NCBI GenBank assembly: GCA_951230915.1
Contig: OX579634.1
Span: 53,271,570 to 53,335,569, forward strand
Length of the DNA: 64,000 bases
Source of the DNA: Antitrichia curtipendula
Taxonomy: Eukaryota; Streptophyta; Bryopsida; Hypnales; Leucodontaceae
Reading direction: 5' to 3'
Made by a program: the position numbers and the translations under genes. The notes beneath the pieces were generated by a model, which was given only the letters and a program-made list of their open reading frames with translations, searched no databases and was not told the origin of the DNA. Positions 1 through 59,255 of the stretch are shown one piece after another (positions within the stretch are counted from its first letter, which is position 1; each line of letters starts with the position of its first letter).

Positions 1-2581
1 AAAGTGGTGCTCGAAGCATGCGACCCATTTTTGAAGAACCGGTGGCCCCGTCTGCACCACAAAAACGTCAGGAAGAGGTTCGTCCCGAACAAATGGCAAG
101 GGCCATTGCATCAATTGATAATATCATAGCGAGCGATGCTACAAATTTTATGACACAAGTACCTTGCAATCAAGACTTACCAACCACACTGAGCCCCGTA
201 TTGAGCCCCGTATTGGGCATCGTATCAAGCCCCATGTTGGGCCCCGTATCGAGCCCAAGAGTTGAAGGGCAGATGTTGCCAAAAAATGGAAAGCAACTCG
301 ATGGCATGGCGCAAAATGTGTCCATTGATGACAACCCATTGGATAAGAGCTATCTGCATTTGTCAACTCAAAATACGGCACAATTGGAGGATCTTTGTCA
401 TTTGCCAATGGCGAGTGAATTGGAAAGCTTGTTGGAAGCTTCTTATTTGTTTAGGGTACATCAACAAGACATCTCTCTTCAACCAAACCAAGTAATCGAG
501 ACAAATGAGGCCGGTCCTAGTAACCCCGCAAACGAGGCGGGCTTGACTGAAACCGCAAACGAGGCCAAACCGAGTAATCCCTTCGCCGAATACAGTGATC
601 AATGGCCCAATTTTGTGATCACCTCAAAAAGATTGTCGATTACAGCTAAATTTGTAGCTAGCATTGCCCCCAAACTTATGGAAGTTGCTCAAGAATTCAC
701 CAAATCCGGGCCCGAGTTGGTGTCTGGTGCCTTGTCGTTTTGGGATTTCGTCACGTCTATGAAACCACTATTGGAGGAGCGGATCGAAAATAATCGCAAG
801 CTGCTCATTTTGAGTGAAGAAAATGAGAAATACAATGCCTTGAAGGTAGAGCACGAGAAATTGAAAGAAGAGCACAAGCAATTGCTTGCTTCATTCAAAG
901 GGGTGTGCGCTAATTATGAAAGATTTGCGAACGCACAGGATCGCCGATATGACACTCTAGTTTCTCAGAGGGAATTTATCGAGAAATTGGAGTACGAAAT
1001 TGTAGTGCTCAAGGAAAAGAATTTCAAGGATGGGGGATGGGTTCTTCCAAAGACCAGCAAAGCCGTGCGTGTAGAAGCAGTTGAGGAAAACAACCAAAAG
1101 GAAGTAATATCCGAAACCGCCATAGATAATCCTCCTCCCACATTCCGAGACGCGTCCATGCAAACGGAAGGCCACAAGTTTGAAGAAGTGAAGCATGAAC
1201 TAGAGTCGGTAACTCAACAAAACGTCTATTTGGAGGCACAATATCTAGAATTATGATGCAAGTAGTGGAGCTAGATAAATGCTTGCCAAAGAGCAGTTCC
1301 AACACTCGTTGGTTGACGTGGGTTCAAAAAATACAAGACAAACCATCTGTAGTAACCCGAGCAATGAAGGGGCTTCTCAAATTAGCCATGAAGTCGAAGG
1401 AGCAATGCGATGCCATTTCCTCTGACCTCCTATCTATTAGAAGGATGTTTGAGGTACATCATAGGGGTTCAATTGACGTCACATATTGGGGGGACATGTC
1501 GGCAGTGTTTGAGCGATTGAATGACACGCAGAAGATTGCGTCAAAGTCCATGAATTGGACCTTGGAAGTAGAAGAAGGTTGGGCCCCTTACAACACGCAT
1601 TCAACGCACATCAAAGAGGCGGACAAGATAGTAGTGCATGGTGAAAGTTCAAATACGGAACTATTGGAGGGTAAATGCAGCCTTTGTCTAAATCATTTTG
1701 GTCCCGAGGGCGCCTTAATCATGGGCCAATGTCGCCACACTTACCATATCACGTGTATGGTGGAATCATCCCTTGTTCGTTTGGTTTGTCCCGAGTGTCG
1801 TTCTTCTTTGAGCCCTAGGTTTTACGAAATGGTTGGGCACGAGGAGAGCATGCCCCCTAGCCACGAACACAATCGATGGACCCTTCTACTTGACCAAAAG
1901 CCATTTCTATTCCAAAATTACATTCATTGCGGGCGACCTCTCATTTGGAATGCGCAAAAACTCATGCATGATGTTTGTGAGAACTACAATGACGAATTGG
2001 ATGACTTTGACTGGATGACGCGCAATAGATAAGTGGAGTTGCGGGCTAGGGGTATTGAAGACTTGGAGGCTCGATAATTGTTTTGTCGGAGCATGGGGGG
2101 ACACTGGAGCATCTCACATCAAAAGTTCTTCCGATTTCTTGAAAAAGAAGTGCGGAAAGGAGAAGATGGCGTCTGGATAGAAGTGCAACCATCCCAAGAG
2201 TTCAATGAGCAGTACGGAGCATACAATCACAGCTTAATAGGGAGGGCCCTATTCTTATCAAAATTGGAAGAAGCTGCGCAAGTTCGTGCTGCTTTTAATG
2301 TAGATGGGCTATCAAGCACAGAACATGCACTCGTGGAAGTGGCAAGTGCATTTGATAAGAGGATCACCGACATTATAATGACGTGGAGGACTTTTCTACA
2401 TGGCACAGGGCAAGCGATCTCCTTGACCCCTCGAGATGATGACAAAGCGATAAATGCTATGATAGAAAAGATTTATTCGGCTTTGAGAGCGTTAAAGGCA
2501 GAGGAAGTAGATTTGTCTTCCATAAGGAAAAATAAACGGAAGATTGAAGACAAAGATGACTACTCTCTAAAAGCCAAATGA
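1..2581 (+). pseudogene. Coiled-coil / RING-H2 protein gene, copy 1 (decayed, 5' end outside window)
   Basis: The frame is already open at base 1, so the true start may lie upstream; the first ATG is at 18. Residues about 230-410 are charged and heptad-like, so a coiled coil is likely. After a -1 frameshift near 1250 the frame runs on and holds a RING-H2 finger at about 1675-1805: Cys-x2-Cys, then a C-R-H-x2-H-x2-C core, then Cys-x2-Cys. Two in-frame TAA stops (2030 and 2075) separate the RING part from a C-terminal part ending at 2581. The motif after the RING, MGGHWSISHQKFF, matches AGGHWDPERLIF in the RING copy at 29-31 kb, which shows that these pieces are one gene. RING fingers usually recruit E2 enzymes for ubiquitin transfer; activity here is inference. 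The copy is non-functional as read, unless introns remove the stops. Confidence 0.72.
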
Positions 2582-3124
2582 CAATTCATCGCCATAGACA
2601 TGGAAGTCCGATCAGGAGAGGGCACAGCCTCCGGGTCGGGTGGTCCTCAAACTCGTAGAGCAAGTCAAAGACTTAAGGAACAAAAAGGTGCCTCTCATAT
2701 TTCCGCAAACGGTAGCGATGATGCAAAATAGTGTTTGTATTAGGGGGTTAACCAATGAAATTTTTTTTGTACTTATTTGAATCTCATGAGGATTCAATAT
2801 TAGTAATGCACAACACTCATGGTATGTCATGAGTTGCTTTTAATTGATGTATAAATATTTATGCAATACAAATATGTTTGGATTTGTTTTTTCATAACGA
2901 TAAATTTTGCCTTCTTTATTTGTCAAATATGTTTTTTTTGCGTACCTATTGCAGAAGATCATACCTATTGTACATTTGTACAAGATCATTTTATGTTATT
3001 GTTATGTTATCTTTTATAACCCCGTGCCTACAAATAACCCATTTTTATTTGCACATACATATCTATTCGCCTAATCCACTTGTCCGCCTGTCTGCACATT
3101 TCAAACATCTTACTGAAATTGTAA
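2582..3124. other. AT-rich spacer
   Basis: Downstream flank of the RING gene. I see no coding signal, only AT-rich sequence with a run of ATG-containing short frames. Confidence 0.5.
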
Positions 3125-3570
3125 AAAACGGTTGGCCGCCTGACAGGTTTTCGGTCGGCCCATCCGCCGTCCGCTGAACCGACGGCCCAGATTCCCGTCC
3201 GCCAACTACCCATCCGTTCATCCAATGGCCCAGATTCCCGCCCGCCCGTTCGCCGTCTCCCGTCCGCCCGTCCGCTGATCTGACGGTCTAGATTCCCGTC
3301 CGCCGACCGCCCATCCATTGATCCAATGGCCCAGATTCCCGTCCGCCCGTCCGCCGTCCGCTGAATCGACGGCCCAGATTCTCGTCCGCCGACCGCCCAT
3401 GCGCTCATCCAATGGCCTAGATTCCCGTCCGCCCGTCCGTTGATCCAACGGCTTAGATTCCTGTCCGCCGTCCGCCCGTCCCCTGTTCGGACAGCCCAGA
3501 TTCTCGTCCGCCCGTCCGCTGATCCGATGGCTTAGATTCCCGTCCGCCGTCCGCCTGACCGTTGTGGGAG
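3125..3570. repeat. GTCCG minisatellite array 1 (upstream of hAT copy 1)
   Basis: Degenerate tandem repeats of GTCCGCCCGTCCG joined to GATCCGACGGCCCAGATTCC-like segments, units about 35-65 bases. The array ends about 280 bases before the hAT start codon. The long frames through it on both strands (rich in R, G, P and S) are artefacts of the repeat. Confidence 0.85.
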
Positions 3571-3609
3571 GATTTTTTTTTTCCCATATTCAACGGTCAC
3601 AAATAGATG

Positions 3610-3625
3610 AAGACTATAAGAGTCC
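3610..3625 (+). promoter_or_regulatory. Possible TATA box for hAT copy 1
   Basis: ACTATAAGAG lies between array 1 and the start codon at 3849. This is a weak match, supported mainly by the same array/TATA/gene order at other loci in the window. Confidence 0.3.
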
Positions 3626-3848
3626 TGAAATTGACATTTACAAGCACTCCTAAGAAACTGAACGTTAAGACTTCCAAGAGCTAGGAGTTGCAATTTTTTG
3701 TGTCCCTTGCTTGGTAATGCATAGTTCAGTGGAAAGAGGGGCCTTGTTTTCCAAGGCTTTGTGCATAAACATTTGAACGATTTTACCCAATTGTTATCAT
3801 TACGTTTTGAACTTAGGGTTTCAATACACAAAGCCTAAAACAGCCACC

Positions 3849-4980
3849 ATGACCAATGATTGGTCTTCTTGGTACAAAACCCTATTAAATGGAAAAGTAC
3901 AATGCAAGGCTTGCAAATTGGTATTGGTCAAGAAGCCGGTCCGTATGTTTAGTCATTTGGGATATGCAGGCATATCGGGGAGTCGTGACAAAGGAATCAA
4001 CCTTTGTACCCAAATGACATCTGAAGTTCGAGGTCTATTTGTTTGTTGCAATGGAGTGATTCCACAAAGAGGTACTCCACACAATGTGGATGGCAACGAC
4101 ACACCTATGCCTATGGTTGTTCGTGCTATGTTAAATGCCATAGACACTGTGAACTCTACCGAAGAAGACTCATGCACGACATCAAAGGAATATGTTGGTG
4201 GTTCTTCCCAAGGAAATCCAAGTACACAAGCATCAGGTGGACGTGGAACTCAGCGGACATCAAGCAGTAGGCCTCAAAGACAGAGTAGGCTAGTAGAGGG
4301 ATTCGACGAAGCAAATAAACGCATTTTGAATGCAATGTGGGCCAATTTCTTTTATGCGGCAAATATACCATTTGCTGTAGCCCGAAATCCAGCCTTCAAA
4401 AAAACAGTGAAGAAAACGGCGGAGTTTCACCAACCTTATAGCCCACCATCATACCATGATCTACATCATAAATTGCTTGACCAAGCAAAGGTAGATTTAG
4501 AGGTCAATCTCCGTAAGCGGACAGAAACCAGTATCAGGAAGTTTGGAGCCACATTGTTTATTGATGGGTGGACCTCGGTTTCGAATCGGCCATTGATAAA
4601 TGCCATGCTTGTGTCATCCGCGGGTGAGCAATTCCTAGGATCGGTGGATACAACTGGGAAATTTAAAGATGCTCCATATTTGGCCTCTATATTAGAGAGT
4701 TTTATAGAACAAGTGGGCCCTGCAAACATAGTGCAGGTGAGTACAGATAATGCGGTTGTAAATCTACCAGCATGGAGTTTGGTATCTACTACCTATCCCT
4801 ACATTTTTTTTCAAGGTTGCGTGGTGCATGCCTTGAATTTGTTGCTAAAAGATTGGGCAAACGAACAATGGATTGATAACGTCGTGAAAGATTCCCGAAA
4901 GATAGTCAAATTCTTCAAGAAGAGGCACATGCCGCTTGCGATACTTCAGAAATATTCGACGCAGTACAACTTACTGTTGG
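3849..4980 (+). pseudogene. BED-hAT transposase copy 1, 5' part
   Basis: The start is taken at MTNDWSSWY, which has CACC just before the ATG; an upstream ATG at 3807 gives 14 unlikely residues. A BED-like finger follows (W-x2-W, C-K-A-C, then H-L-G-Y). Next comes a linker rich in S, T, G and Q, then a DUF659-type region of the RNase H-like hAT catalytic core with FIDGWTSVSNRPLINAM, GSVDTTG and VVHALNLLLKDW. The frame stops at 4985 only because a 5.1 kb element is inserted after 4980. Joined to 10121 with one GTTGG copy the frame continues. The second hAT gene (44.7-45.7 kb) has the same order of domains. hAT transposases cut and paste elements with 8-base target duplications. Confidence 0.88.
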
Positions 4981-6520
4981 TGTGAGCCCTCAAGTTAGCA
5001 CTTGAAGCTCTGGATTTATTTTTCGCGATTTATTGTTAGTTTTTAGTATTAATTCACGCAAAATAGCATGAATTAGTAGTTGAAAAGAGTTTGATAGAAG
5101 TCCCTACCAGATTAGTGAGGAACCTTCCTAAATTCATGGAAAGCACAAAATACTATACTTTTCTATGTTTATGTCTTAAGTTCAGTGTCTTAGAGTCCAT
5201 ATTAACGTATTAGAGAGATGGGAGGAAGTGAGAGTTAGCCAGTTCTAGTGTCTTGTCCATGTAACACTTGACATGTGAATACATGTGACATCCTGGCTAA
5301 AGTGCAAGAGTCCATATCAAGGTTTAGAAGTATCTCGATCCAATTCGTGTAGAATATGGATTAGTTACATGAAGACCTATAAATGTTGAAGAATATGAAT
5401 CAGAATGCAAAGTAGAAGAAAGGCGAGGTGATTGGAGCTTACAAAAAAGTGCTTTTAGGGTAAAAGCATGCCAAGAGATCAACAGCGGAGCTAATCATCC
5501 ACAACAACCCCGGTACCAGAATAATTCCCCCCCCGAGCGGAAATTATTAAGGAATTGCTAAAATTAGCATCCTTATTGGAGGTTTGGTTTTGCCCTTGGC
5601 CTTTGGACACTTTCCAAAAGATTGCCCAAAAATTTCGGGATTTTACAAAACTCCACGATGACTCCATGGGAAGTCAACCGCCTTTGAAACTGATGGTAAT
5701 TTCTTAGAAATTACCCAGAGTGCGGTAAAATCTCACTAAAAATTAGATTAGAGTTTTATGTATTAAATGAGCGACCTGTCAAGTTTAAAGACTTTCTGAT
5801 AGTCAAAAGTACCCGAATCGGCATCAACATCAAATTTAACAAGAATTTACAACACGACGGCGAGTTGACCGGCGAGCCAGGAGCTAGCGGTGTCTGAATG
5901 TCACAAACAAGGAATGTTTTCTTACTACCACGAACCTTCCAAGCAACCCTAGCCAATTAGTTTTCTCGGGAAACTCAAATTCCATTAGTTGGGATTTTGA
6001 CTTTTCTCTAGAATTACCGTTAGTGGTTTTTACAAATATTTACAGCCTGGAAGAAGGGGGCAAGGGGTCCCCTAGACTAATTGGGGTCTTCTGAACGCGA
6101 TGGCGCAATCGGTTTTCAAATTGGAGTTTTTCCCTAAAAGATAGATAGGGTCAGCTCTTAGTTTGACTTTTTTAGAGTAATTTGTAGTAATTCGAGGTTA
6201 ATTAACAAAATATCTTGGTAAAAATCAAAGATTGGATTTAGTTAAGATGTCAAATCTTTCCTTTAAAAGCCAATTTAGATTAAACTAAGAATATTTGGAT
6301 TTGACCTAGGATTAATTTGCAAAATATCTAGGTTAGTTAGGGTTATTTTCATAAAATCTTTGGGGACAATCAAGGATTTGATTTAGGCAAGATTTCAAGG
6401 CTAATTAAAGCCTTCAAGGAACTTGCTTGAGGACCTTCCTTCCTATTAAACAAAGATTAAATGCAAAATATCTCATAGTAGTTTAGAATTTAGTTAGGTA
6501 GTTAGTTAAACGTTTTTTAA

Positions 6521-6581
6521 CCGACAACTTACCGGGGAGGGCTTGGCTCGAGTATAAAAGGCCTCCCCTCGAGGTTGTCGG
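6521..6581 (+). promoter_or_regulatory. TATA box inside a large dyad (LTR promoter)
   Basis: TATAAAAG (6553-6560) lies inside an inverted repeat whose outer arms are CCGACAAC and GTTGTCGG and whose inner arms are GGGGAGG and CCTCCCC. This is probably the transcription start region of the LTR. Confidence 0.6.
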
Positions 6582-6999
6582 AACCCTCATTCTTATACCC
6601 TCACTCTCATTTTCTTTTCTCTTTGGTACTGACACGTTGTCAGACCAAACCTTATTTCCATTTCCTTATTGTTGCTCTGTTGTGCTACCAACACGTTGTT
6701 GGAGCACTTTAAGCCAAAAATTGGCTAATTCCTTCTATTTCTTTGCATTTTCCGCTAATTCTCTTGTGTTTTGAAGGACTAGAGGGTCCCTTCAAAACCT
6801 ATTGCTTTCTTTTGAATTTGGAGGTTGAAAGCCCCAAAACTTTGATTCTTTGCTTAAGATTACTTGAATACTAATCCATTGTAGCACGTGAACGCATTTG
6901 GTACTAAATACTTAAAGCGGCGGGGCTTGACCTTGCCAAAAGTATTTTAGACTAATTTCCTATTCAAAGTTCGTTGTATAACGGAATTTGAGGTTTAAT

Positions 7000-7345
7000 T
7001 GCTAATGTTCGGTTAAACACTTTCATGTGTACCTCCTTTAGCAGTTAATTGATTGACTTTGACTTGAAATTTCGGAAGATTCGTTTCTAATGTTCGGTTA
7101 AACACTTTCATGTGTACCTCCTTTAGAATCTAACTTCCGAAATACTTAAATTGGCTTAAAAAGCTCCGTTTATCCTGGGGTTGCTCCCGCACGGCGAAGC
7201 TTTGACTTTTTGAACCCTGGAAACGGATACTTGAAACTTAAAATTGTTCGATTTGACCTGGGGTTGCCCCCGCACGACGAAGCTTTGACTTTTTGAAAGT
7301 TAAGATTTGCCATTTAAAACTCAGATTTACCTCGTACGGCGAAGT
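7000..7345. repeat. Short duplications inside the LTR
   Basis: ATGTTCGGTTAAACACTTTC, followed by ATGTGTACCTCCTTTAG, occurs at about 7004 and 7090. A CCTGGGGTTG...GAAGCTTTGACTTTTTG block occurs at about 7175 and 7257, with a decayed third copy near 7335. Confidence 0.75.
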
Positions 7346-7684
7346 TTTAATTTGGAATCACAAAATAAGGTTCTTTTGAACCTTATTTAAAGTTCAAAGT
7401 TTGTTGTTTCATTTCCCCTTTGTTTTGGACACGTGGTGGAGGTATTTTGCTTCCAATTTGCCATTTATTGCTTATGTTACTTCCAAGTTGGTTATTTTGA
7501 TTATCATTCATTTAAGTTTTAGATATTGTTCACAAAAATTAAGCTTATCCTTGTTTTGTGTTTTACAATTAACAATTCTTGATTATATTCTAGTGTTGTT
7601 GTTTTTTTTTTAAAAGGAAGAGATTGATTTTTGTTCTTTAAAAGTCAATTTCAGTTTGATTAAGGGTGTCGAAATTTCAGTTTC

Positions 7685-7935
7685 AGTAAGGATCAGTAAG
7701 GGCCTGTGGAGACGAGAGCAAGGGAACGCTGGGGGCCAAAGACTGGGAACGTTCCGACTAGCAGCAGGACGCGACGAGACCCCGACCTGACGACCTGACG
7801 GCGGACAGGGACGACACGACAACAAGGGAGACGGGACGAGACCCCAACGACCCTGCTCGAGATCCCGACCTGACGGGACCAGACAGGGGCTGAAAACTGA
7901 CAGCAAGGAGGAGAAAACGGAAGGAGATGACCTCC
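7685..7935. repeat. GC-rich GACCTGACG patch
   Basis: A locally GC-rich stretch inside an AT-rich LTR, with repeated GACGAGACCCC and GACCTGACG words. No coding function is seen. Confidence 0.4.
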
Positions 7936-8299
7936 TGTGGTAACGAAATTTCAGAGTCAGGCCAGCGGTGGTTTGGAAATACAGTCCAGCACAATTCTGG
8001 ATTTTTTCCAAAATTTTCAGTAAGAATTGTTATGAACTCATGATTCAAAAGCTATTTGGTGGCTTAACCTCAAAACTAAATCCCAAGACATAGGCGGTTG
8101 TTGCCACGTTACCAACTTTTTTGCAAATTTTGGAAAATTTGAACACTAAGGATTTTGAACTAACATTCGCCTCGGTTCTTGAACCTCTCAAATTCTCTCT
8201 CCGCCATCGCCAAGAATTCAAACAACAACAACATCATAAGAAGTGGAAGAAAGCGAGATCATAAGAAGATTAACAAGGAAGGACGAAGAATAAAGGAGT

Positions 8300-8500
8300 T
8301 AAGGTTAGTATCTTACTATTGAATTTTGGAATTGTTTTGATTATTCTATTCTTTTTGTTAGTATCTTACTATTGAAACTTGGATTGTTTTGATTATTCTA
8401 TTCTTTTCATTAGTATCTTACTATTGAAATTTGGATTGTTTTGATTATTCTATTCTTTTCGTTAGAATCTTACTATTGAAGTTTGGATTGTTTGGATTGC
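8300..8500. repeat. Tandem repeat, unit about 52 bases, about 4 copies
   Basis: The unit contains TTAGTATCTTACTATTGAA, TTGGATTGTTTTGATTATTC and TATTCTTTTC. Copies start near 8306, 8358, 8410 and 8462. Confidence 0.8.
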
Positions 8501-10080
8501 AAAATTCCTTTTACTATTCATCGATAGATTTGTTTTGATTATTTTAGCTTATTTTATTAGATTACTATTCATTCGGTTGCTTTTAGTTATTAATTAGGAT
8601 TCCAAAGACAAATTAGTTGTTGTTTTGTTGTTTGAGTTTTGTTTTATTAGGCCTAATAAGCCAAATAGATACAAACAAACACCAACTAATATCTTGGAAT
8701 ATTTAACAAAATAACTATTAAACAATTGGCAATCGAATAAACTACTATTCATTGAAACTTGGAAAAAATGAATTAAATTTATTATTAATTTCCTAAAATC
8801 AAAGGATTAGTTTTAAATTGCCAAAACTAACAAACTTGGACTTTTTAGATAGGTTTAGAAACAATAATACTAAGATTTCTTCCAAATACATGAAAGGCAA
8901 TGGAGAATTTCAAGGAGACAATTATGATGGTGTTTTGCGATGATGGGACGATCGACATTCTCGATATTGAGGTATGAATTTCCAAACTTTTCTTTTGTTT
9001 TCTCTTTTGCTTTCATTCTTTAAAAATTAGATTAGAAAACTAAAATTAACAAAATTAGAAATCCGATAGCTAGTTAAAATTTAAAATCATTGGAAAACCT
9101 TAAAAAAACTTAACTATAATCGTGAAAGTAATAATTAGATTAACTTTGAGTGAATTTGGAAACCGAAATAGTAATTTCATCCAAAAGAATTTCAAAAGAA
9201 ATCTAACATAATTTAAGAATCTAGGAAATATTAGAATAATTGGGGAGATTAAACCCTAATTTATCCCTTAAATTCTACATAAAACTTACTTGAAACCGAA
9301 TTCCATCCAACTAAGGGGAATTTTCATTCATTCATAAGTTTTTACCTAGAAGTCCAAAATTCTTACTTTTTACCATTATAAGAAGTAATTTATCACTTTA
9401 CCCATAAAAAACCATAAAACTATAGAAAATCACTAAATTTAGAATAATAACTTAGAATTAGGCTTAATTAAAGAACAATTAGGAATATTCTCAAGGAACA
9501 ACTATGGGATCTTTGGAAACCATAATCTTTTAGAGAATCTTTTGAAGATTCCAATTCCACCTCTTACTTTTAAAATTACTTTAATTTGAAAAGATAAAAG
9601 TGTGGATGAAGATTTGACCTAAATTTGGATGAAAATTCCGAAAATAGGTTAAAATTATGTTTTTCTCAAAATTCCATTAGTTAACTTAATCAACCTTTTA
9701 ACTCTGAAATTTAGATTTATTTCACATTATTTTGCTATTTTTAGTTGACGGATGAAGTTTTTAGGATAGAATTAAGGCCGGATTTCATCCACGCATAACG
9801 TTTGCTAGGAATATCAGAATCCAGCTTGCTTTACCATTTCGGAAAGGGCAAATTGTATTCTTTGATTTACATTAGGTAGAATTTTAGTTAGCTAGAAGTT
9901 TAATCGCATTTAATCAACCTTTAACAACCTTTATTTCTTAACTATTAGTGTGTTTTGAAGCATTTAAATTAGGTAAAATCAACATAACAAAGTGTCCATT
10001 GCTTGGAAGGCCAAAGAACACTACGTTTAATTTCATCCCCTAGAAATTACTTTTCATGCCGCTAGAATCCGTGTGCACGT
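8501..10080. other. AT-rich right part of the LTR-like element
   Basis: No open frame of note and no recognisable motif. The sequence is rich in AAATTAG-type words. Confidence 0.5.
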
Positions 10081-10115
10081 TTTACCTCTGAAGGGGGGAG
10101 ATTAAAACACTCACA

Positions 10116-13221: not shown

Positions 13222-13404
13222 TCCATAAAGATTGAGAAGATGTAAACTTGGGTGTTTAGTTTTTCCCCCTAAATACATTATGTTATCACAATTCATTGTT
13301 TGAACTTTAAATTTGTAATACAAATTTGCTCATTCATGTTGTGCACACCATCAAAATTTTGTTTTTTCAAATACCTTAAAACTAGCAAAGAATTTGGACT
13401 GTCT

Positions 13405-45962: not shown

Positions 45963-45964
45963 AG

Positions 45965-46861
45965 CTAGACGGAGTGACGGCTGATGGAGTGGACCCTAAA
46001 CCCGCAGCCTTGCCAACGAAACCGTCCAAGGGGTGACTGTCCCGTCCTGTAATATTCCGGTCCAGGGGACGGGACGGTTTCCCGTCTAGAGGACGGAGAG
46101 GCCGTCCAAGGGACGGATTACCGTCCTGGAGACGAGAATTCCGTCCAGAGACGGGCTCTCCGTCCAGGGGACGGCTTACCGTTTTGGAGACGAGAATTCC
46201 GTCCAGAGGCGGGCTCTCCGTCCAGGGGACGGCTTACCGTTTTGGAGACGAGAATTCCGTCCAGAGACGGGCTCTCCGTCCAGGGGACGGCTTACCGTTT
46301 TGGAGACGAGAATTCCGTCCAGAGACGGGCTCTCCGTCCAGAGATGGGCTCTCCGTCCAGAGACGGGCTCTCCGTCCAGGGGACGGCTTGCCGTCATGGA
46401 GTTGAGAATTTTGTCTAGAGACGGGCTCTCCGTCCAGGGGACGGCTTACCGTCCAGTGACGGACTCTCCGTCCAGCAACGGAGTCTCCGTCTAGAGGACG
46501 GCTTACCGTCCAGCGGACGGCTTGCCGTCCAGCGACGGACTCTCTGTCCAGAGGACGGCTTATCGTCCAGCGACGGACTCTCCGTCCAGAGGACGGCTTA
46601 CCATCCAGCGACGGACTCTCCGTCCAGCGGACGGCTTACCGTCTAGGGGACGGCCTCTTCATCCACAGACGGGCTCTCCATCCAAGAGACGGATGTCCAT
46701 TTGGCGACGGAGTCACCATCCTGGTGACGGCCCGACGTCGTCGCAGAATGGACAGACTTCATCTGCGCTCCTGATGGTCCCGTCAATATCGGCGACGGGC
46801 TGGGACGCGTCATGACATCCGGACTTGAAAAGCCCTCGTCACGTCCGGATAGACAACCCTA
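45965..46861. repeat. GTCCG array 7 with hAT-like terminus (upstream of hAT copy 2)
   Basis: Units such as GAATTCCGTCCAGAGACGGG, CTCTCCGTCCAGGGGACGGC and TTACCGTCCAGCGACGGA. The outer end at 46861 reads TAGGGTTGTC on the minus strand. Confidence 0.85.
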
Positions 46862-49050: not shown

Positions 49051-49173
49051 ATGGAGTCACCGCCAGAGAGCCCACCTCATCCGAAGACTGATTACGAGCT
49101 CTTGCAAGACCAGAAGAAGGCGGAGATGCTCATGGCCTTGGAACCCGTACTGCGCGCCAGGCAGGAGTTGTGA
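49051..49173 (+). CDS. Small 40-residue frame, possible first exon of the accessory gene
   Basis: MESPPESPPHPKTDYELLQD begins a short proline-, acid- and Leu-rich peptide that ends RARQEL. It could be a leader exon or a chance frame. Confidence 0.25.
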   Translation: MESPPESPPHPKTDYELLQDQKKAEMLMALEPVLRARQEL

Positions 49174-50041
49174 GCTGCGGTTCCCCTCGGAAGTCTTGTT
49201 AACTTGTCAAAGTTCTGGTTCTTGCATGCATGCAGTCCCTCCCAGAGTCATAAACGGTCTTCTCTAGCTTGGTGCATGCATGCAGTGCCTCCCCCTCATC
49301 ACTAGTTCTGTACAATTACAGTACAGAACGTCGTGGCTCCTAAATTGACGACCAGAATCCCTATTGTATACGCGAAGTCAGATGCTCGGTCATCTTTTAA
49401 CTACACGATTTGTAATGGTGCTTTGAAATTTTTTCGTGGAGGGGTTAGTGTATTGGCGTCGTAGTGTTTTTAGTATCAAGGCATTAATTTCGCCGCCGTC
49501 ATTTTTCTTGAGTGGCGTGAAGTCGTTCCCTAGTCGCGATGGAGTCACGTTCCAGAGCTTACGACTTTGACGTGACTACAGTGAAGTCAGGAAGCAGTTG
49601 TGAGAGAGTCGCGTGCTCGGAAGAATGGGCCTAGAAGCCGTTTCCGTTGCCGGTCCACGTGGAACCTAGTGCCGGTGGGTGTGCGCCTTTGAAGAGGATA
49701 GCGAGAAACCCTAATGGCACACACTTGCGTTGTCTTGTTTTGCGATCATGGTAGTGAGACATTTTTCTTGAATTCCAGAGCGAGAGGGGTGCTCATGTTT
49801 GCTTTAGGCGTCTCCTGATTTCTTCTAGTTCTTGCGAGTTTACCCACCTGCTATGTGGTGGAATTGCAGGGACGGCGAGGAAGCGAGGAAGAAGCCGCCC
49901 CGTCATGCCAGCGCCGAGAGGAAGACGAAGGACGCGCTTCTCCATAGGCGGACAATTCTCCCGAGGCGAGGCCTTCGAGGACGCACAGTGAAGCAGCGGA
50001 GCGCAGCAAGCAAGCGCGGAGATCGGCCAAATTCCAAAATG

Positions 50042-50165
50042 GCAAGCGAGCGGGACTCCTCCTCCGAGGCGACAGAGTCCAATGACGAGGCCATCACAAA
50101 AGGTCTTTTGCACCTTGCAATCGCTTGTGACCTTGAGCGGCAATTCAAGGATGCGGATGGTGCAG
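50042..50165 (+). CDS. CACTA accessory (TNPA-like) gene, early exon
   Basis: MASERDSSSEATESNDEAIT begins an acidic then helical stretch. It ends at a GCAG|GTAATT donor and joins in phase with the exon whose acceptor is TTTGTACAG at 50579. Confidence 0.5.
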
Positions 50166-51234
50166 GTAATTTCTTGGACAAGGATTCCCTGTTGTGGTTT
50201 GAGGGTTTTTGGCACTGCATTTTGCGTTGTCGTAGGAGGACATATGCGGCTGCTCACTGCAACACGGCTCAGTTATGAGCGTTCCAGTCTCGCGCTTGTG
50301 ATTGCACTTGCCGAACCAGCATATTCGTTATTGACTGGTTTCAGAAATCAACGGCAATGCGTACACGTTCATTTTGTGCATCTTTCAAGGTTTTTGCAAG
50401 TGCAACTTCAAGTCACCTGGCTCATTGCTGTAACGCGCTTCTTCTGTGACTGCAGTTAAAACCCCGTTACAGATAATTTAGTTGCTTGTCCGGCCCCGGG
50501 ATTAGGGTCCCTCCTCAATGGCACTCACTTTTTGGCAGGAAAACTAACTAGCGCGTGCGGTGCTCCAGTCTTTGTACAGATGACATTCAGTTGCGAGAAG
50601 ACTCTAGCAACGACAACATGGAGGAGAGCAAACCTCTGCTGAATCGCAGATCCAAGCGGGCAAAATTTGGTGGCCCGTCCAAATTGCCAGCGAAGGAGAA
50701 GTCTGCGAAGGCGTTGGAGCCGGGACGTCCACCAAGCGCGACTCCGTACGCATTGGGTTGGACGTGGCAGCCGGCTCAGTGGATGTCCGCACAGTCCTCT
50801 CAACCACCACCCACTTGGAATGGGCCTCAACCACCCATGACTGCAGCGCCATGGTCCGAGAGTGCTAGAGGATCTTTACAGGACAGTCACTACAAGAAAA
50901 CGGGTATTTTATGACTGCAAAAATATGACTGAGGATGACTGACGACTAGTTGCAGTCATATTCTTGAAGGCCAACACATTGAGGAAAAATATGACTGCAA
51001 AATATGACTGTTAGTCATTTTTGGGCCTTCTACTTCATAAGTATACACTATACGACCATTAGGAACACCAAAGTACTTCATAGGGAACGTAGGGAACATG
51101 TTTGGGGAACGTTGAGTCATATTGTCAGTCATATTTCCATAGTAGTGACATTTTTTTGATTTGGGCAACCCAAAAAAAATACGGGCAATTCAAAAAAAAA
51201 TTAGAAAAACCATTGTTTAAGATTTTGAAATCCT

Positions 51235-51430
51235 ACTCACCTATTTTTTAGGATTTTGAAACCTAGTCACCACTTTTTTAGGGTTTTGAGATCCTAGCCG
51301 CCACTTTTTTTAGGATTTTGAAACCCTAGCCGTCACTTTTTAGGGTTTTGAAACCCTAGCTGCCACTTTTTTAGGGTTTTGAAACCCTAGCCGCCACTTT
51401 TTAGGATCTTGAAACCCTAGCCGCCACTTC
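51235..51430. repeat. Tandem GTTTTGAAACCCTAGCCGCC repeat
   Basis: About six copies of a unit of about 30 bases, TTTTTAGGGTTTTGAAACCC plus TAGCCGCCAC, inside the small CACTA element. Confidence 0.85.
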
Positions 51431-51469
51431 TTTTGGCCCTTCTTCCTTGCCTTTTATTGTCTCTTAGCT

Positions 51470-51910
51470 CATACTTGTTATTGTTTCTTAGTTGTTGTCT
51501 TTTGTTGCATCTTATCTCTTCTTTCTTGTTGCTTCCTAGTTCTAATCATGCTTCTTGTTTCTTGTTATTGCATCTAAACTCATTCTTTCTCTACCATTTT
51601 AACTCTTATCTTCTTCTTAGTTCTTTTTTTTATTCTTCTTGTTGTTTTTTAATTCTTACTTCTTGTTTTTTTTGTTGGATCTTAACTCTTGTTTCTTGTT
51701 GTGTCTTAGTTGTTGCTTCTTGTTTCTTGTTGTATCTTAGTTGCTGTTTCTTGTTTCTTGTTGTGTCCTAGTTGTTGTTTCTTGTTTCTTGTTGTATCCT
51801 AGTTGTTGCTTCTTGTTTCCTATTGTGTCTTAGTTGTTGCTTCTTGTTTCTTGTTGCATCTTAACTCTTGCTTATTGTTATCTCTTAGTACTTGTCTATT
51901 TTTCTTCTTG
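51470..51910. repeat. Pyrimidine-rich TTCTTGTTGTNTCTTAGTTG repeats
   Basis: Low-complexity units of TGTTTCTTGTTGTATCTTAG type. The Leu/Ser/Cys-rich frame through it is an artefact. Confidence 0.8.
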
Positions 51911-52319
51911 TTTTCTCCATCATCATTCTTATTTTTCCTACCCTAAACTTAAGCTACATATTTTGTATTGTTATAAGCCTTTGAAGGTTGAGATTTGTTT
52001 TTCATTCACTAAAAATTAACCTCCCATTTCTTTAATTGTTTATGCAGGCACCAAAAGTTGAAACAAAGTCATTGGAGGCTACTTGCAATCCAATAGAGCC
52101 ATCTTCACATTATTGTAAGGAATATAGGCCTTTTTGAATTTTGTGAATGATTCATTGTAGTATATATGTTTTGTATTGGTGATTAATAAATGTTAATGAT
52201 GAGAGTTGCTTTCCTTCTTACATTCTTTCTTTCCAATATGATTATCTCTTGTATATCTTTAAAATCATACGTATTCATTTTTAACTACATGGAGTCTTTT
52301 CCAATATATGACTTTGTAT

Positions 52320-52680
52320 TTTCCAAAATATGACTGCAATTAGTCATAAACTACCAAATGAATGACATCCACATGAAGTACCACATCAACCAAAATATGA
52401 CCCATAAGAGTCATATTTCACATTAATAAAATATGACTCACAAGAGTCATATTCCACATCATTCAAAAATATGACTAACAAGAGTCATATTCCACATCTA
52501 CAAAAAATATGATTGTACAAAGTCATATGCCACATTAGCCAAAATATGACTCACTGCAGTCATATGCCACATTAGCCAAAATATGACTCACCGCAGTCAT
52601 ATTCCACGTCAGCCAAAATATGACTGATCGCAGTCATATTCCACGTCATCCAAAAAAATTGACTACGTGGAGTCACATGC
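52320..52680. repeat. Tandem AATATGACTCACAAGAGTCATATTCCACAT repeat
   Basis: About eight units, each with an ATGACTNNNNGAGTCAT-type dyad joined by CCACATYANCAAA. These are subterminal repeats of the small CACTA element. Confidence 0.85.
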
Positions 52681-54014
52681 CACGTAGAATTAATTTTTGT
52701 TTGCCCGAGCAACTCAATAAAAAGTCAAGCCCTCAAAGATAGTCAAAATATACGCCTTGTTGGCAAAATACGGCTAATTATGGATAATTATACCCCCCAA
52801 AAAATATGATTGCCAATATGACTGATGTCCGAAGCGACTTGTCGGTAATGACTCATGTCAGTCATATTGCAGTCATCTACAGTAATTTCTGCGACCAGTC
52901 ATATTTTTTGATTTTAGGACTCATTGCAGTCGTATTTTGCAGTCATAAAACACTGGTTTTGTTGTAGTGAGTGAAGACAGGGCTTCGCGGAGGAAGCGAC
53001 GTCAAGCATACGATGCAGGGAGCCAGAATTGCGAAGCGGAAGGGAAGAAGCCAAATTACATTGTTGTTGGCAAAGGTGGTGAAGTGGATGCAGGGTGTAA
53101 GGGGAAAAACGCCTGGGATGAGGCAATCCGGGACTATACCCCAAGGATGCTGGATATGTCCTGCACTACTTGGTCCAAGCAGGACCCTTACGCTGTTCGT
53201 AAGCTTAGAGAAGCTTTGGAAAGTGAGTTTGAGTACCGGGGTCAACCCCTGAGCTTGGTGGGCTTCAAAATTGCCATAATCAAGTTTATGAAGTCTGAGC
53301 GATCTCGCTTGAAGGTGAAGTGGCTAGCAAGACAGGTTGATTGCCTTGACCACATCAACGGTTCGCAGTGGGAGAGGTTGATAGACTACTGGGACACACC
53401 TGCCCAGTATATGAAGTCGCTGAAAATGAAATCTGCTCAGCAAAGTGTGAAGTCAAGCCACGTCGTGGGAAGGAAAGGGAAAGCTGGCAAGGAGGTTGCC
53501 TTGGTAAGTACCTGGCTTACCGTGGGTTTTTTTCTGATTTTGCTTGCTTCCTTTGTTTCTTTTGAGAGGTGTGAACGTCACCGCACTAGAGCAAACTGAA
53601 AATGCCATTGACTTGCCTTTTGTGGCATTGGATTGTGCACAGAGAATCCCGGGAAACGACTCCAGGGATCACTAATCTAGCGGAAGGACTCAACTTCACT
53701 CCACCCGCTTGTGAAGGGAGACCAGTATGTGCTTTGTCAACCATTGTCTTCCCCCCCACTGTCTCTTTGTTTTAGTTGTGTGTGCGTGTCATTGAGCAGG
53801 GGTTTCCTATTTCTGTAGTTGCAGTGCAGTCACTTTGAAGTCGTATGACCCGATTGAAGTTCTGGGAAAGTCATTTTTTTCCGTTGTGACTGCATCATAA
53901 CTGCGCTGTGACTACAGCATGACTGTAGTATGGCTGTGCAATTTCTACCATACATATGGATGACTAATCGCGTGAATCTTGTCTTCTTGGCTGTTCATAA
54001 GCCGTCCGATGCAG

Positions 54015-55663
54015 GGGACAATGGTTTGCGCTCCACGGTTGAGTCTTTGAAGCGTGATGTGGATGCTAAGTTCACTCAAATCGTTGCACCCACCACGGCC
54101 CAAGCATCTGCAATTGACGACCTGAAGGTGATGTTTGCGGATTTCTTGGGAAAGTCAAAGGGTCCCACAGTAGGCAGTCCATCCATTACGGAATCAGCGC
54201 TTGAAAATGAGGACTCAGCTGGGGCCGCGCAGCCTTTACGGAAGTCGCGGAGTAAGGTGATTGCTGATGACGGTGACCAGTTGGCATCGAAGGCAGCAGT
54301 GACATTGTCGGACGACTTTGAAGTGCCGAAGGTTCACTTACCTAAACCCCTGTCGCCGCGCTGGAAGGTGGAGGATCACGACCCATCTGCTCCGACGTTG
54401 CATGTAGGGGTGAAGCCGTCTGAAGAAGATGGTTCCGTCGCCGATGCTATGGCAAAGCATGTAGTTACTCCAGCTGCAGCAGGTTCCCCCGACTGCTACA
54501 TTTTGTCGCCGGACAAGCCTAGACCGCGTATAGGTCTTGCAATTGACACTGAGCGTGAACCTGACCACAACGAGGATCAATGTGTTGGCCCTGTGGACCA
54601 GCCACAGAAAATATGCTCCACACTCCTCCAGGCGGTTTCTCCTATGACACTAGAATCTGTTGTTTCTCCTGTGACAGGTGCTGACGATTCTCCTGCCAAG
54701 GTGCTCGAAGGGAATCCAATTGGTGCTGCCAACACCCATTCCTCCGAGGAGCGCACCATGGATTGTGGCAATGCGGAGGTCAACCCAGATGAAGGAGGTG
54801 AGGGAGGTTTAGCGGTCTTCCCTGTTGACCACGCTACGGCAGCTGATGTTGCACCTGCGCCGGCTAGGAAGGCTAAGAAAGCTTCCAAGTCCCCCTCTAA
54901 GGTTTGTAAGTCGCAGCCCCCAATTCCTTCTGCATCCGTTCCTGAGGTTCCTTTCCTCACCTTGCAGGACGTCGTGACTAATCAGATGGGTGGCTCAAGT
55001 TCACATGCTCCGAAGTTGATCATTTTCAACGTTCAAGGAACCCTTCCGGACTGTAGAATGCTTTCTACTGCCAACCCAAATACTAGCATCCGTGTTAGCA
55101 CGACAACGAAGTCCCATAGAGTAGTTTATCGTCCTTGGCTTAAACATTTTCTGGCCCGTTGCTTCTCACATTTCAAAGTAGCGTTTTGGGGTAGCAGAAG
55201 CGCTCCATACATGTTGGATGTGGTTCCAGCAATGTTGAGAGGGTTCTACAGTCATGCCTCTGACAAAGATCCCCTCTTCTGCTGGTCCTGTACTGGTAAT
55301 TCTACAAGTGGAGGAGAACACGGTAATGGGAATTTGGGGGAGAAGCCCTTATCCGTAGTCTATGGCCAGTACCCTGAGTTCACGGAGGAGAACACGTTAA
55401 TTGTGGATAGTAAGAGCTGTAGGGTTGCTTGCAATGCGGAAAAGAATGTGGTCATCACGAACCCATTCTATGTAAAGTGGCTGCGCACCATAGCTGACGA
55501 CAGAGATTATCTAAAGTTTTATCTGTGGCCCGTCTTGGAAGCTTTCTGGAGATGTCCGGACGTCAGTGCCTTTCGAGCGAAGTACCCTGAAGTGCACAAC
55601 GAGTCCAAGTCTGAATGGCTTCAAACCAAGATCCGTAGAACTGGATACCATTTTCGTGAAACG
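54015..55663 (+). CDS. CACTA accessory gene exon with a dead FCP1/NIF-type phosphatase domain
   Basis: The exon starts after a GATGCAG acceptor. The N-terminal part is helical and acidic (STVESLKRDVDAKFTQIV), followed by a long Pro/Ser/Ala linker. The C-terminal 200 residues follow the FCP1/SCP (NLI-interacting factor) HAD phosphatase fold: LIIFNVQGTL in the place of the catalytic FDLDGTL, RPWLKHFLARCFSHFKVAFWGSRS, KPLSVVYGQYPEF, and ENTLIVDSKSCRVACN. Both catalytic Asp residues of the DxDxT motif are changed (Asn and Gln), so the domain should bind and not cleave. It probably recognises a peptide such as a polymerase tail; that is inference. The donor ACG|GTAGGA joins the 55767 exon in phase. 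Confidence 0.72.
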
Positions 55664-55766
55664 GTAGGAGGTGAGGGGATTTGCCTCCCAGACGGTTTCA
55701 AACACCAAGCGACCCTCACCTTCAACACTACTTCACATGTTTAACTTCTCTCTCGTGTTTGTGCAG

Positions 55767-55844
55767 GGAAGAACGGGGAAGCAAAATACCAGATTGAAAA
55801 CAACCTTTGCTACGGAGAAGAAACATGATGCTGCACCAAAGAAG
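55767..55844 (+). CDS. Accessory gene exon, basic
   Basis: Acceptor TTTGTGCAG, donor AAGAAG|GTACGG, 26 codons, Lys/Thr-rich, in phase with the exons on both sides. Confidence 0.6.
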
Positions 55845-57096
55845 GTACGGTCACTTATACACTCACCTCATGTCGGACGCAGCATGCCCACCCTGCAGTC
55901 GCGTTGTTGTCGTGTATGAGTCACCAGGGAGTCGTGTTGCACTCGTGACTACTCCAAAACTGCTGTTTCAGTGAGGTTGCAGTCGTGAATTCGGTCCGTC
56001 ACTGCATCATGACTGCAGTATTCTTCAATGTCGCCCTCACGCGCCCGGGTCTGATTGGGAGTTCAGTTGTCTGGATTTCATGAAGTCTAGTCACTGCGAA
56101 CTTGTTCTTCACGTTACGCGCGGAAGAAGTATTCAATTACGCTGCGGTGTGCTTAGAATAATTGAAGAAGTGGCTGCATCAGGGCGTGCGGTCCCCTGGA
56201 TCCATGTATGTTGTCCATATCATGTGTATTCATTCAGTTATGATGGTAGCCCCTACAGTTTATAGCGCAGTAGGCTGTATGTTCTTCAGGCGACGTGACT
56301 CTACTCTGCCACGGTTTCTAGGGAAAAGGTGATTGTAGAGTCAATGACTGTGTGCTCGTCTATGCGAATTACTACTTTCGCAAGAGACGCAGGGCTAGAG
56401 AGGTTCTAGTTTTGCAGGGGAAAGAATGCATGTCTACACTAAATCAAACAAGCAGTTTCTTGTTGTGGAGGAAGCTCACCCTTCAAGCGCGTTTTTGTCG
56501 TCTGCGAGTCACTTTGAAGTCGTGTTGCAGTCGTGACTTCTGTCCAGTGTCTTTGCAGTCGTGAATTGCGTCCGCGACTGCTTCATGACTTTAGTAAGCT
56601 TGAATGTAGCATAGAAGCACTCAGGTCTTACGTGTGTGTTGGAGTGCTTTCGGTTAAGTCTTCTCCTGTGGAATTGTTCTTCATGTACGAGAAGGGGAGA
56701 TGACACAGTCTGTCACGCTACGGTGGGCTTACAGTAAGTCAGCATGTCCAAAATTCATAGCGGTTTTAGGGTGGGTTAATGAGGGGCAGTAGCTTCATGC
56801 TTGTTAATTCAATTGTGATGGTAGTCTTTTGAGCTTCACTCGCAGTAGGCTTTCACGTTGTTCATACTTGAATTCATTGTGGTAGGGTTTTTTAGAGCAG
56901 TCCAAGTCACTGTACTATCGATCTAAAGTCAAATGGCATTGAAGTTCTACTTCCGTAGGGAAACATGACTATACTAAGTCGTGCGGCAGTGACATTGAAG
57001 TCGCGTTATGCGATGTATTGCAGGTGCGCAATGACTGTAGACGCAGCCTTTGTAATTGCGCCTTAAGTGAACTGATTTTTGTCTTGCATGCCACAG
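55845..57096 (+). other. Intron with TGACTGCA clusters
   Basis: Clusters of GACTGCAG, AGTCGTGA and TGACTGTAG words at 55920-56040, 56280-56350, 56510-56600 and 56900-57040. No gene seen. Confidence 0.6.
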
Positions 57097-57372
57097 GGTT
57101 TCAACATTGGCGACAAAGTCTTCGTGATGAACCCACATGTTGTGCGACAGAAGGTGGCAGTTGGAAAGGTTAGTGGATTTCACGGGTCTCACAAGTTTCA
57201 CGGAGTAGAAATTCCACCATCGTGGTTGAAGGTGGACATCCGTGAAGTGCTTCAAACTGGGGTGGCCCTCATGTTCCCCAATGACGCAGCTGACATGACG
57301 TTGATAGAGCATGCAAAGGGGTCTTCCGCAATTTGGAACCAGAAGTACGTCAAGCAGGCAAATGGCACTTGA
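57097..57372 (+). CDS. Accessory gene last exon, DUF8039-like domain
   Basis: Acceptor GCCACAG, phase 0. It encodes FNIGDKVFVMNPHVV, VAVGKVSGFHG and a final SAIWNQKYVK before TGA. The pattern (VAVGKV, a central V-D-I-x-E-V, a terminal A-x-G-x2-A/I-W-x2-K) resembles the small beta-rich domain at the end of plant En/Spm ORF proteins (DUF8039). Confidence 0.6.
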   Translation, partial: GFNIGDKVFVMNPHVVRQKVAVGKVSGFHGSHKFHGVEIPPSWLKVDIREVLQTGVALMFPNDAADMTLIEHAKGSSAIWNQKYVKQANGT

Positions 57373-57699
57373 TGTAGGGTATACAGTTGTGTTTGCTAAC
57401 ATTGGAGCCTTGAGGACGACTTGGTGGACGCCATGTATGTAGGGGCTGCGGTTTTCTCCCGCTCTTTTCCTTGTGAAATGCAGAACCTTCTTTCAAAATG
57501 CATGCTCAGCTAATATGCCCCATTGTTGTCAGTAGTCAAGCGCATTCATGTTTTGGACTACTCCCTGCGTGTTAGAAATGTGTTTTAATTTTGTTTTGAA
57601 GTATTCCCTGCGTGTTAGCACTTAGCAATGTGTTTTCATTTCTGAACCCATGATGAGGTCGTCATTTGATTTTCATGAACGCTCACACTCGTCTCCGCA

Positions 57700-58507
57700 T
57701 TCTGTAGTCGTGACTTCAGCACTACTTCAGAATAACTGCACATGCTTCTGTTCCGCAACTCTAAGGTGACTGTAGTACGACTTGTGCATGACCTATTTGT
57801 GTCCACCCCTTATTGTCTACGTCACATTCATCCGCGACTACACAATGACTGTAGCATGACTTCTGGAAAACGTCCACATCAGATTCACGAGGGGTCACTC
57901 TCAACTGTGATGTGACTGCATCGTAACTGCGCAAGGAATGTCCACGTCAGATTTTACACGGGTAAAACGCAACTGTAAAATGACTGCCGCAACCACATTC
58001 GTTATGTCCACGTCGGATTTAGAAGGGGTAGGACGTCACTCTAAAATGACTCCTCCATGACTGCAATAGCAAGTCCACGTCAGATTTTAGACGGGTCAGA
58101 CGCAACTCCAAAATGACTTCACCGTGACTGCCTCGAGGATGTCCACATCAGATTAAAAAGGGGTCAAATGCAACTCCAAAATGACTTCACCGTGACTGCG
58201 CTTCCATTGTCCACGTTAGATTTATCATGGGTCAAGTCGTTATCCACCTCGTCCAAAAAAGCCCTCCCTTTCCACATGGCAGCTCAAAACCATCTTTCCA
58301 AGGCTTTCTTTCTTTATCAAGCCTCATATCATCCAAAGTCTCATCCGTTCCTTCTTTGTTAGGTAATAATATCTCTGCAGTCATTCTTGTAAATGACTTG
58401 TCCGAAATGATTGCAGCGCCACGGAGTCATTCTTTCGTTTTGCGACTGCAACGCGACTGTTTTGCAGTCATTTGCACAGTCACGTTTTTCTCCATTTTTT
58501 TGTAGTT
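57700..58507. repeat. CACTA right subterminal repeats and terminus
   Basis: About six tandem units of about 60 bases (57840-58230), each with a GTCCACGTCAGATTT word, an ACGGGTCA-type word and CTCCAAAATGACTTCACCGT. At 58430-58485 are TGCGACTGCAACGCGACTG and TGCAGTCATTTGCACAGTCA. The terminus is TTTTTTTGTAGT. Confidence 0.85.
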
Positions 58508-58708
58508 TTGTCTGCTTGTTCTTGTGACCACATTTTGGAGAGGTGCGTCATTTTGAAGTACTTTTTGCACATTGTGCAGTCCCAAACCTTCTTGGGCTCT
58601 TCTTCCCATCCAGGTTCAGCTACAACACATTGGATTTGCCCAATCTCCCCAGTTCATGTCCTGGGATTTACCTTTGTTACTGGACCTTGAACTACTATTG
58701 CGAGGCAT
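58508..58708 (-). pseudogene. KDVDW-domain gene, 5' part
   Basis: The start is taken at MPRNSSSRSSNKGKSQ (58708). MNWGDW then appears in one frame and VVAEPGWEEEPKKVWDC in the next; copy 2 has LDWGTLNAEEVMAKPGW. A one-base shift near 58618 is therefore likely. A C-x2-C motif and a following His (CTMCKKYFKMTHL) suggest a small zinc-binding fold. The frame is open at the CACTA junction and continues at 20356. Confidence 0.72.
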
Positions 58709-58980
58709 GATAACCTTGATTAAAATGAAATGATTTGATGACAAAGTTCACATGAATCTTTAGGAGAACTGAACAAAATGTTTGACACTTGCCAATGAAA
58801 CGAGGTGAAGTTGTTAACAAGGCCTTCAAAACCAAGTAATCACCAAAATAATTTGGTGCAATTCAGTATCCGAGCACAATCGTTCACGCACCAAAACGAA
58901 AGGGGCGCGCAGAGCCACTGAGAGGCACTGGATCACCTACTCCGCAAGGAAAACGATTGTGAGGAATGAGTCGTCCGCCG

Positions 58981-58992
58981 CGCTATTTATAG
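58981..58992 (-). promoter_or_regulatory. TATA box of the KDVDW gene
   Basis: CGCTATAAATAGCG on the minus strand, about 275 bases before the start codon and at the inner edge of array 8. This is the same array/TATA/gene order as at kinase copy 2. Confidence 0.65.
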
Positions 58993-59255
58993 CGTCCGAA
59001 GGCGGACTAGGCAATGCGGATGCGTACGTGCGAATCGGACGGCCCAGAATCGGACGGGCAGATCGTGCGGACGGGATCGCCCGGACGTCCCGTCTGCACG
59101 ATTGCGTCCGCGAGCTCGACGCCCTGTCCGCTTGAGGGCCCGTCCGCGAGCCCCCCGACCGCGCGGACGGCCCGTCTAGGGATGTCAAAAGACGTCCGGG
59201 GGTCAGCGCCCATGTCCGCCGGACGTCCGGACATTCGGACATCTTGTCAACCCTG
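58993..59255. repeat. GTCCG array 8 with hAT-like terminus (right end of G1)
   Basis: Irregular CGGACGG, GTCCGCG and GGACGTCCGG words. The outer end at 59255, read on the minus strand, is CAGGGTTGACAAGATGTCCG, a typical hAT start. Gypsy pol begins at the next base. Confidence 0.78.

Follow-up and report, generated by a model that had tools for sequence, protein, structure and literature searches.

Plant hAT elements are regarded as transposons of a few kilobases with one gene, and Ac codes only for its transposase. A second protein besides the transposase is encoded by CACTA (TnpA/TnpD) and MuDR (mudrA/mudrB) elements, which resemble the elements described here in this respect and belong to different superfamilies; we know of no pairing of a kinase with a KDVDW-RING protein in either. 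Ac is given as 4.6 kb long in PMC3260210. The window analysed here, a 64,000-nt stretch of the Antitrichia curtipendula genome (G000:C2:53271570-53335569), contains two elements, G1 and G2, whose kind has in common with Ac/Ds a transposase with DUF659 and a hAT dimerisation domain, short inverted YAGGG-type ends flanked by 8-bp duplications, repeats close to these ends, and small non-autonomous derivatives (here a miniature inverted-repeat transposable element, MITE). By transposase, ends and duplications, elements of this kind fit the hAT superfamily, from which they depart in size (16–20 kb), in having three or four conserved genes in fixed order instead of the single gene of a typical plant hAT element, and in a promoter array before each gene.

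Among other large elements, ToxhAT/ToxTA of wheat-infecting fungi is comparable as a 14-kb cargo element that was once called hAT; according to PMC12506042, it has a TA duplication and 74-bp inverted repeats, and its authors move it to Tc1/mariner as a non-autonomous element, whereas elements of the G1/G2 type have 8-bp duplications and their own hAT gene. Fungal Starships are likewise large DNA elements with recurrent accessory genes, but are defined, again in PMC12506042, by a tyrosine recombinase with DUF3435, an enzyme of another kind, which was not among the matches of the 25 open reading frames (ORFs) scanned out of 78 listed for the window. Giant transposons (PMC6431247) are similar as large eukaryotic elements with extra domains; the main text of that source contains none of the whole words hAT, kinase, moss and bryophyte. 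In the open PMC literature, subscription journals being outside this scope, we recognised no account of a hAT element whose cargo includes a kinase and a RING protein.

G1 and G2 represent two diverged subfamilies (Type I and Type II) within a single kind of large hAT DNA transposon, and each subfamily recurs many times in the genome as a fixed multi-gene unit; Type I is about 16.4 kb long and Type II 20.5 kb in the window, including a 3.2-kb insertion in its hAT gene. To this explanation as a whole, namely two multi-gene hAT subfamilies whose extra genes would belong to the element's own kit and would form a self-regulated unit with the transposase, we assign a probability of about 0.85.

The evidence that carries this reading comes from single-protein searches of the 400-Mb assembly to which the window belongs, and all linkage and cluster counts rest on the best-scoring matches of each gene family. 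For Type I, these were the best 86 of 1358 candidates for the kinase, 147 of 1222 for the RING protein, 109 of 1414 scored for the hAT transposase, and 147 of 974 for a RING-less protein, here called KDVDW-only; random-placement controls were drawn on contigs C1–C10 only. The Type I genes follow the order KDVDW-coil-RING, hAT and kinase on one strand, with KDVDW-only facing them on the other. Within 30 kb, a RING gene accompanies 67 of the 86 kinase genes, on the same strand in 62 cases and upstream in all 62 (random mean 2.2, maximum 10; 500 runs), a hAT gene accompanies 53 (50 on the same strand, 49 upstream), and a KDVDW-only gene 60, with 59 on the opposite strand and downstream and distance quartiles of 2806–2826 bp. 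All three partners were found for 31 kinases, two for 33, one for 21 and none for a single one, and the order of RING, hAT, kinase and opposing KDVDW-only gene is kept in 27 of the 31 complete sets. When the four lists were clustered, allowing gaps of at most 12 kb, 239 clusters resulted, of which 81 hold three or four families and 56 hold two; over 200 randomised runs, clusters with at least three families averaged 0.07 and never exceeded 2. In all 29 other fetched kinase loci, the match to the window copy extends beyond the gene into its flanks; for 17 of these loci it forms a single alignment of about 4.5 kb at 93.4–95.8%. A reading made earlier from the letters of the window alone (the sequence-only reading) had proposed a large cargo-carrying hAT family, to be given up if its gene families proved mostly single and unlinked or had unrelated ends; instead, Type I and Type II sets are linked in fixed order and orientation genome-wide, and the Type I copies have ends in common.

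For 10 of the 36 Type I copies of standard spacing, the expected end regions were retrieved (801 bases per end). A further copy, on C4 (C4:22300153-22316531; 16,379 bp), was read as letters in its outer parts, and the searches placed all four genes inside it. The C4 copy extends from TAGGGTTGAC to GTCAACCCTG, has arrays near both ends and is flanked by a perfect GTTGTAGA duplication. Type I ends read YAGGGTTGAC ... GTCAACCCTG, those of G2 YAGGGTTGTC. Both ends were located in five of the ten further copies (at most two mismatches), with ATCAAGTA, CTCTTGAA and GTGACGTC as perfect duplications; the six copies with both ends, of 11 examined, are 16.26–16.55 kb long, and the duplication is 8/8 in four of them. 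An empty site, for which the sequence-only reading had called, is also available: joined through one GTTGTAGA, the C4 flanks read in a single frame that matches a CACTA ORF of the window (60% over 91 residues, ungapped), and the latter ORF therefore serves as the site without the element.

For Type II, the best matches comprised 45 of 1840 candidates for hAT, 150 of 1144 for the kinase, and 57 long matches of 2498 for RING, seven short N-terminal pieces among 64 matches having been excluded. Its genes are arranged as in G2, with hAT and KDVDW-coil-RING in the same direction and the kinase between them in the other. Within 30 kb of 32 of the 45 hAT genes there is a Type II kinase, about 3215 bp away (quartiles 3214–3216) and on the opposite strand in all 32 (random mean 1.1, maximum 4). 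Kinases also lie near 40 of 57 RING genes (control 1.3, maximum 5), and RING genes near 15 of 45 hAT genes, on the same strand and downstream in every case (control 0.38, maximum 3). All 11 triples keep the order, and seven of the 45 scored G2-like hAT genes are without a stop. The fixed distances and orientations are stronger evidence than the excess over random placement, and we hold with high confidence that the recurrent gene sets are mobile units rather than genes clustered by chance.

The Type II element of the window is laid out as follows.

26357..46861, unstranded: G2, 20.5-kb hAT element; duplication GGCACAAA (26349–26356) / TGCACAAA (46862–46869), 7/8
29163..31484, minus strand: G2 KDVDW-coil-RING gene; stop at 29385–29387
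36381..38042, plus strand: G2 kinase gene; in-frame stop at 37350–37352
39374..45700, minus strand: G2 hAT transposase gene; stop at 44837–44839, 3.2-kb insertion at about 41532–44774, frameshift near 39551

Ends of the YAGGGTTG type occur in the window at 26357 (+), 31791 (−), 46861 (−, TAGGGTTG) and 59255 (−), with exact YAGGGTTGTC at the first three only. All four had been taken for hAT ends and all are indeed end-like; as the end of a unit, however, 31791 was rejected. Among eight pairings tested, only 26357/46861 reaches at least 7/8 of an 8-bp duplication (5.5e-4 for random pairs), compared with 2/8 for 26357/31791 and 3/8 for 31827/46861. By itself, the 8-mer CAGGGTTG shows no enrichment in the window (3 seen, 2.24 expected); the evidence for the ends consists of the duplication and the genome-wide copies. 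Type II ends were read in G2 and in a 363-bp MITE adjoining the C4 copy (L044, reverse strand 2717–3079), which carries the left 77 bp (96%) and the right 47 bp (91%) of G2 within a perfect CGTTAGAG duplication and thus pairs the G2 ends independently. The expected 8-base duplications are complete in four of the six Type I copies and in the MITE, 7/8 in G2, and missing from G1. The 3.2-kb insertion in the G2 hAT gene holds a gag-like ORF of 509 aa (42145–43674, plus strand); long terminal repeats were looked for in 41532–44774 and none were found, and an ORF 8–10 kb left of the window resembles the gag-like ORF by eye.

The Type I element is interrupted by a CACTA element, which in turn contains G2.

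1..20359, plus strand: G1, left portion; left end CAGGGTTGACGAATTGG lies outside the window at −1230
58508..59255, plus strand: G1, right portion; right end CAACCCTG at 59255
1..2581, plus strand: G1 KDVDW-coil-RING gene; KDVDW-type domain outside the window at about −621, frameshift near 1250, stop at 2030
3849..11788, plus strand: G1 hAT transposase gene; insertion of about 5.1 kb (from about 4980 to 10114), frameshift near 10450
16417..17904, plus strand: G1 kinase gene; unbroken, 495 aa
19576..20359, minus strand: G1 KDVDW-only gene, 3' part
58508..58709, minus strand: G1 KDVDW-only gene, 5' part
20360..58507, unstranded: CACTA element; TTG duplication, inserted in the G1 KDVDW-only gene, contains G2

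In window coordinates, G1 spans −1230 to 59255 and, by arithmetic, is about 22.3 kb long without the 38-kb CACTA element and about 17.2 kb if the insertion in its hAT gene is also subtracted. Excision of the CACTA element in silico restores a single reading frame through the KDVDW-only gene, and a paralogous genome copy runs continuously across the site (window 20359 to 58507). The gene set that the sequence-only reading had assigned to G1 was retained with changes: the left end lies off the window; the RING gene, completed with the sequence to the left, also has a KDVDW-type domain and the same build as its G2 counterpart, with ARKVDW in place of GKDVDW; and the KDVDW gene (58709–58508/20359–19576) is real but is an additional, RING-less fourth gene split by CACTA. 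The G1 kinase gene is the only unbroken one among the G1 and G2 genes of the window; genome copies of the G1-type hAT gene have open frames of up to 1129 aa. Directly left of G1, another hAT transposase open frame (L009, −2397 to −1198) overlaps the left end at −1230.

The presence of hAT, kinase and RING/KDVDW genes in both window elements, as first read from the letters, is borne out by Pfam domains, homologues and a structure model. Both hAT proteins match DUF659 and Dimer_Tnp_hAT (PF05699 at 1.2e-8 in G1 and 3.6e-9 in G2); at the N-terminus of one hAT protein (P0055), a C-x2-C ... H ... C pattern is visible by eye, and Pfam BED gave no match. The G2 kinase has a Pfam kinase domain in its second piece, and the G1 kinase has no Pfam match while many of its homologues do carry that domain. 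Its model adopts a kinase fold with a helical N-terminal part (pLDDT 77), and residues K213, E232, D330, N335 and D353 are invariant across 18 aligned sequences, so that by predicted fold and catalytic residues the cargo gene is one for a eukaryotic protein kinase. Matches to zf-RING_2, one in each RING gene (1.8e-5, 25.3 bits; 1.9e-4, 22.1 bits), both lie just under the curated cut-off of 27.3, and the eight RING C/H ligands are invariant in five sequences. In the G2 RING protein, a KDVDW domain at the N-terminus is followed by a coiled-coil region and then the RING; both domains are covered by three of its four outside homologues, the fourth being a C-terminal piece. Between G1 and G2, identity amounts to 38% over 152 and 22% over 274 residues for the kinases, 36–43% in long pieces for the hAT proteins and 33% over 91 residues for the RING proteins. 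The two sets therefore do not stem from a recent duplication, and the grouping is probably old, as had been supposed. Among 29 kinase copies (one of 30 was excluded for its length), pN is 0.023 and pS 0.058, and the ratio of 0.40, which is biased down, would fit constraint during spread. No internal stop is present in 30 of the 86 scored kinases.

A further shared trait is the GGACGG array. The window contains eight such GGACGG/CCGTCC arrays, with limits set by hand, at 19.5–43.8 motifs per kb compared with 0.32 per kb elsewhere; none is assigned a strand.

3150..3565: upstream of G1 hAT
13420..13560: in G1, away from any gene start
15840..16200: upstream of G1 kinase
26357..26950: G2 left end
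31740..32365: upstream of G2 KDVDW-RING
34740..35960: upstream of G2 kinase
46040..46861: G2 right end, upstream of G2 hAT
59000..59255: G1 right end, upstream of KDVDW-only gene

That the genes sit beside arrays had been seen at the outset; when start codons are placed by eye, an array lies 217–421 bp upstream of each of the six gene starts that are visible (4.5e-5 by random placement; 0.2% of rigid shifts). Likewise, each of 30 fetched kinase loci shows 9–18 motifs in the 700 bp upstream and zero in the coding region and the 1.5 kb downstream. Ac-type transposases bind repeats near element ends, and we therefore infer that the arrays may share a role in end recognition and gene control.

In the mechanism that we propose, the transposase, with its BED-like N-terminal finger, would bind GGACGG repeats at the ends for transposition and also the arrays before the genes, making transposase, kinase and KDVDW-RING protein one self-regulated unit. 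The KDVDW domain would serve a RING ubiquitin ligase by binding its targets, while the kinase would mark targets, either the transposase or host silencing factors, for this ligase. The kinase and RING proteins are likely to be working components of a long-standing kit of the element: they are kept in both subfamilies although protein identity is low and gene order differs, many copies still have open frames, and variation in the kinase is greater at silent than at amino-acid-changing sites. An action of these proteins on the transposase or on host silencing, with KDVDW binding the target, is a guess that we would expect to be wrong about twice as often as right. Tentative, too, and clearly less likely than not, is the wider picture of a complex hAT lineage with its own phosphorylation and ubiquitylation machinery, held together as one regulon by transposase-binding arrays common to the ends and to all promoters, and running a virus-like gene programme in a cut-and-paste transposon.

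Several observations weigh against our reading. With the best-scoring matches per family, 102 of the 239 Type I clusters hold one family only; among the six Type I copies with both ends, the duplication is 6/8 in one and 1/8 in another, and in five of the 11 copies one end was not found within the 801 bases fetched. The KDVDW-RING structure model is poor (pLDDT 46), and the copies used for pN/pS were picked by protein score, which lowers pN and biases the ratio down. The G1 flanks (left TCTACCAT, right GGCTCAAC) do not match and thus show no 8-bp duplication; as the left flank is a fragment of a different hAT gene and the right flank is gypsy, the window copy of G1 is probably rearranged or hybrid. 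In addition, though less often than within a type, genes of one type occur near kinases of the other: a Type II kinase lies near 7 of 109 Type I hAT, 11 of 147 Type I RING and 14 of 147 KDVDW-only genes, and a Type I kinase near 3 of 45 Type II hAT genes, exceeding our own random estimates of about 2.5, 3.3, 3.3 and 0.6. The elements therefore cluster or nest, and the random controls understate chance linkage.

How far do other explanations account for these data? In the window itself, gypsy, hAT and CACTA elements are nested, and ordinary host kinase and RING genes might have been trapped among them by chance; the copies in fixed order throughout the genome refute this unless they are assembly artefacts, and we consider it next to impossible. 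One large element might also be mimicked by several single-gene hAT elements that lie side by side or nested and have separate ends, and the end-like YAGGGTTGTC at 31791 within G2, which shares 12 bases with the 26357 end, the arrays at internal positions and the single-family clusters are what such a composite would leave. However, the internal pairs fall far behind the outer one in duplication, the MITE pairs the outer ends, Type II gene distances are fixed within a few bases, and the Type I duplications enclose the whole unit, which makes a composite very improbable. A multi-gene hAT unit could, finally, be real while its kinase, RING and KDVDW genes are inert host captures without a role in transposition or in controlling the host; about two thirds of the scored kinases (56 of 86) carry at least one internal stop, as passengers might. 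Yet the kinase and KDVDW-RING genes are retained in both subfamilies, deeply diverged and differently ordered as these are, the alignments show no change in catalytic and RING ligand residues, pN/pS is 0.40 (biased down), and an array stands before each gene, so that passengers seem unlikely. The reading of G1 and G2 as multi-gene hAT elements with a kit of their own is accordingly preferred.

Relatives of the genes are named in other mosses. Two kinase homologues, named as Ceratodon purpureus proteins, show 46% and 40% identity over 95% of the length; the latter is on a 110-Mb contig, bears a V-chromosome locus name and belongs to a cluster with 126 member sequences. For hAT, named relatives come from Ceratodon and Physcomitrium. 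Two further relatives, of the kinase and the hAT protein (P0004 and P0084), are filed under a Bacilli bacterium metagenome-assembled genome and are probably plant contamination of that bin. The elements may explain kinase and RING genes that might be annotated as host genes, such as the Ceratodon purpureus kinase cluster. A lineage that carries three or four conserved genes and occurs in two arrangements across ten chromosome-size contigs offers new material for questions of self- and host-control in cut-and-paste transposition.

As to the surroundings of G1 and G2, the CACTA hallmarks (CACTA ends, 3-bp duplication, Transposase_21) hold for 20360–58507 and not for G1 or G2; the Pfam domains of that element are Transposase_21, DUF4216 and DUF4218. 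Inside it, the ORF 53912–55744 matches an NLI interacting factor-like phosphatase domain (E 4.1e-8), and this element, too, could carry an extra gene. Adjoining the right end of G1, a Ty3/gypsy-like retroelement with reverse transcriptase, RNase H and integrase domains starts abruptly at 59256.

Copies of a non-coding repeat, at most about 185 bp long, 69–78% alike and always on the plus strand, lie at 12785–12968 and 18981–19155 in G1 and at 28698–28794 and 39029–39212 in G2; a stretch resembling it, judged by eye, lies at the L053/L054 insertion site. Two regions of C8, 190 kb apart (G000, C8:10274254-10300081 and C8:10464607-10490261), have their mixture of Type I and Type II genes in common, with similar distances between the genes, and are probably a segmental duplication. 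In L004–L008 (G000:C1:71051-72238), CAGGGTTG recurs at multiples of 118 bp as a tandem array.

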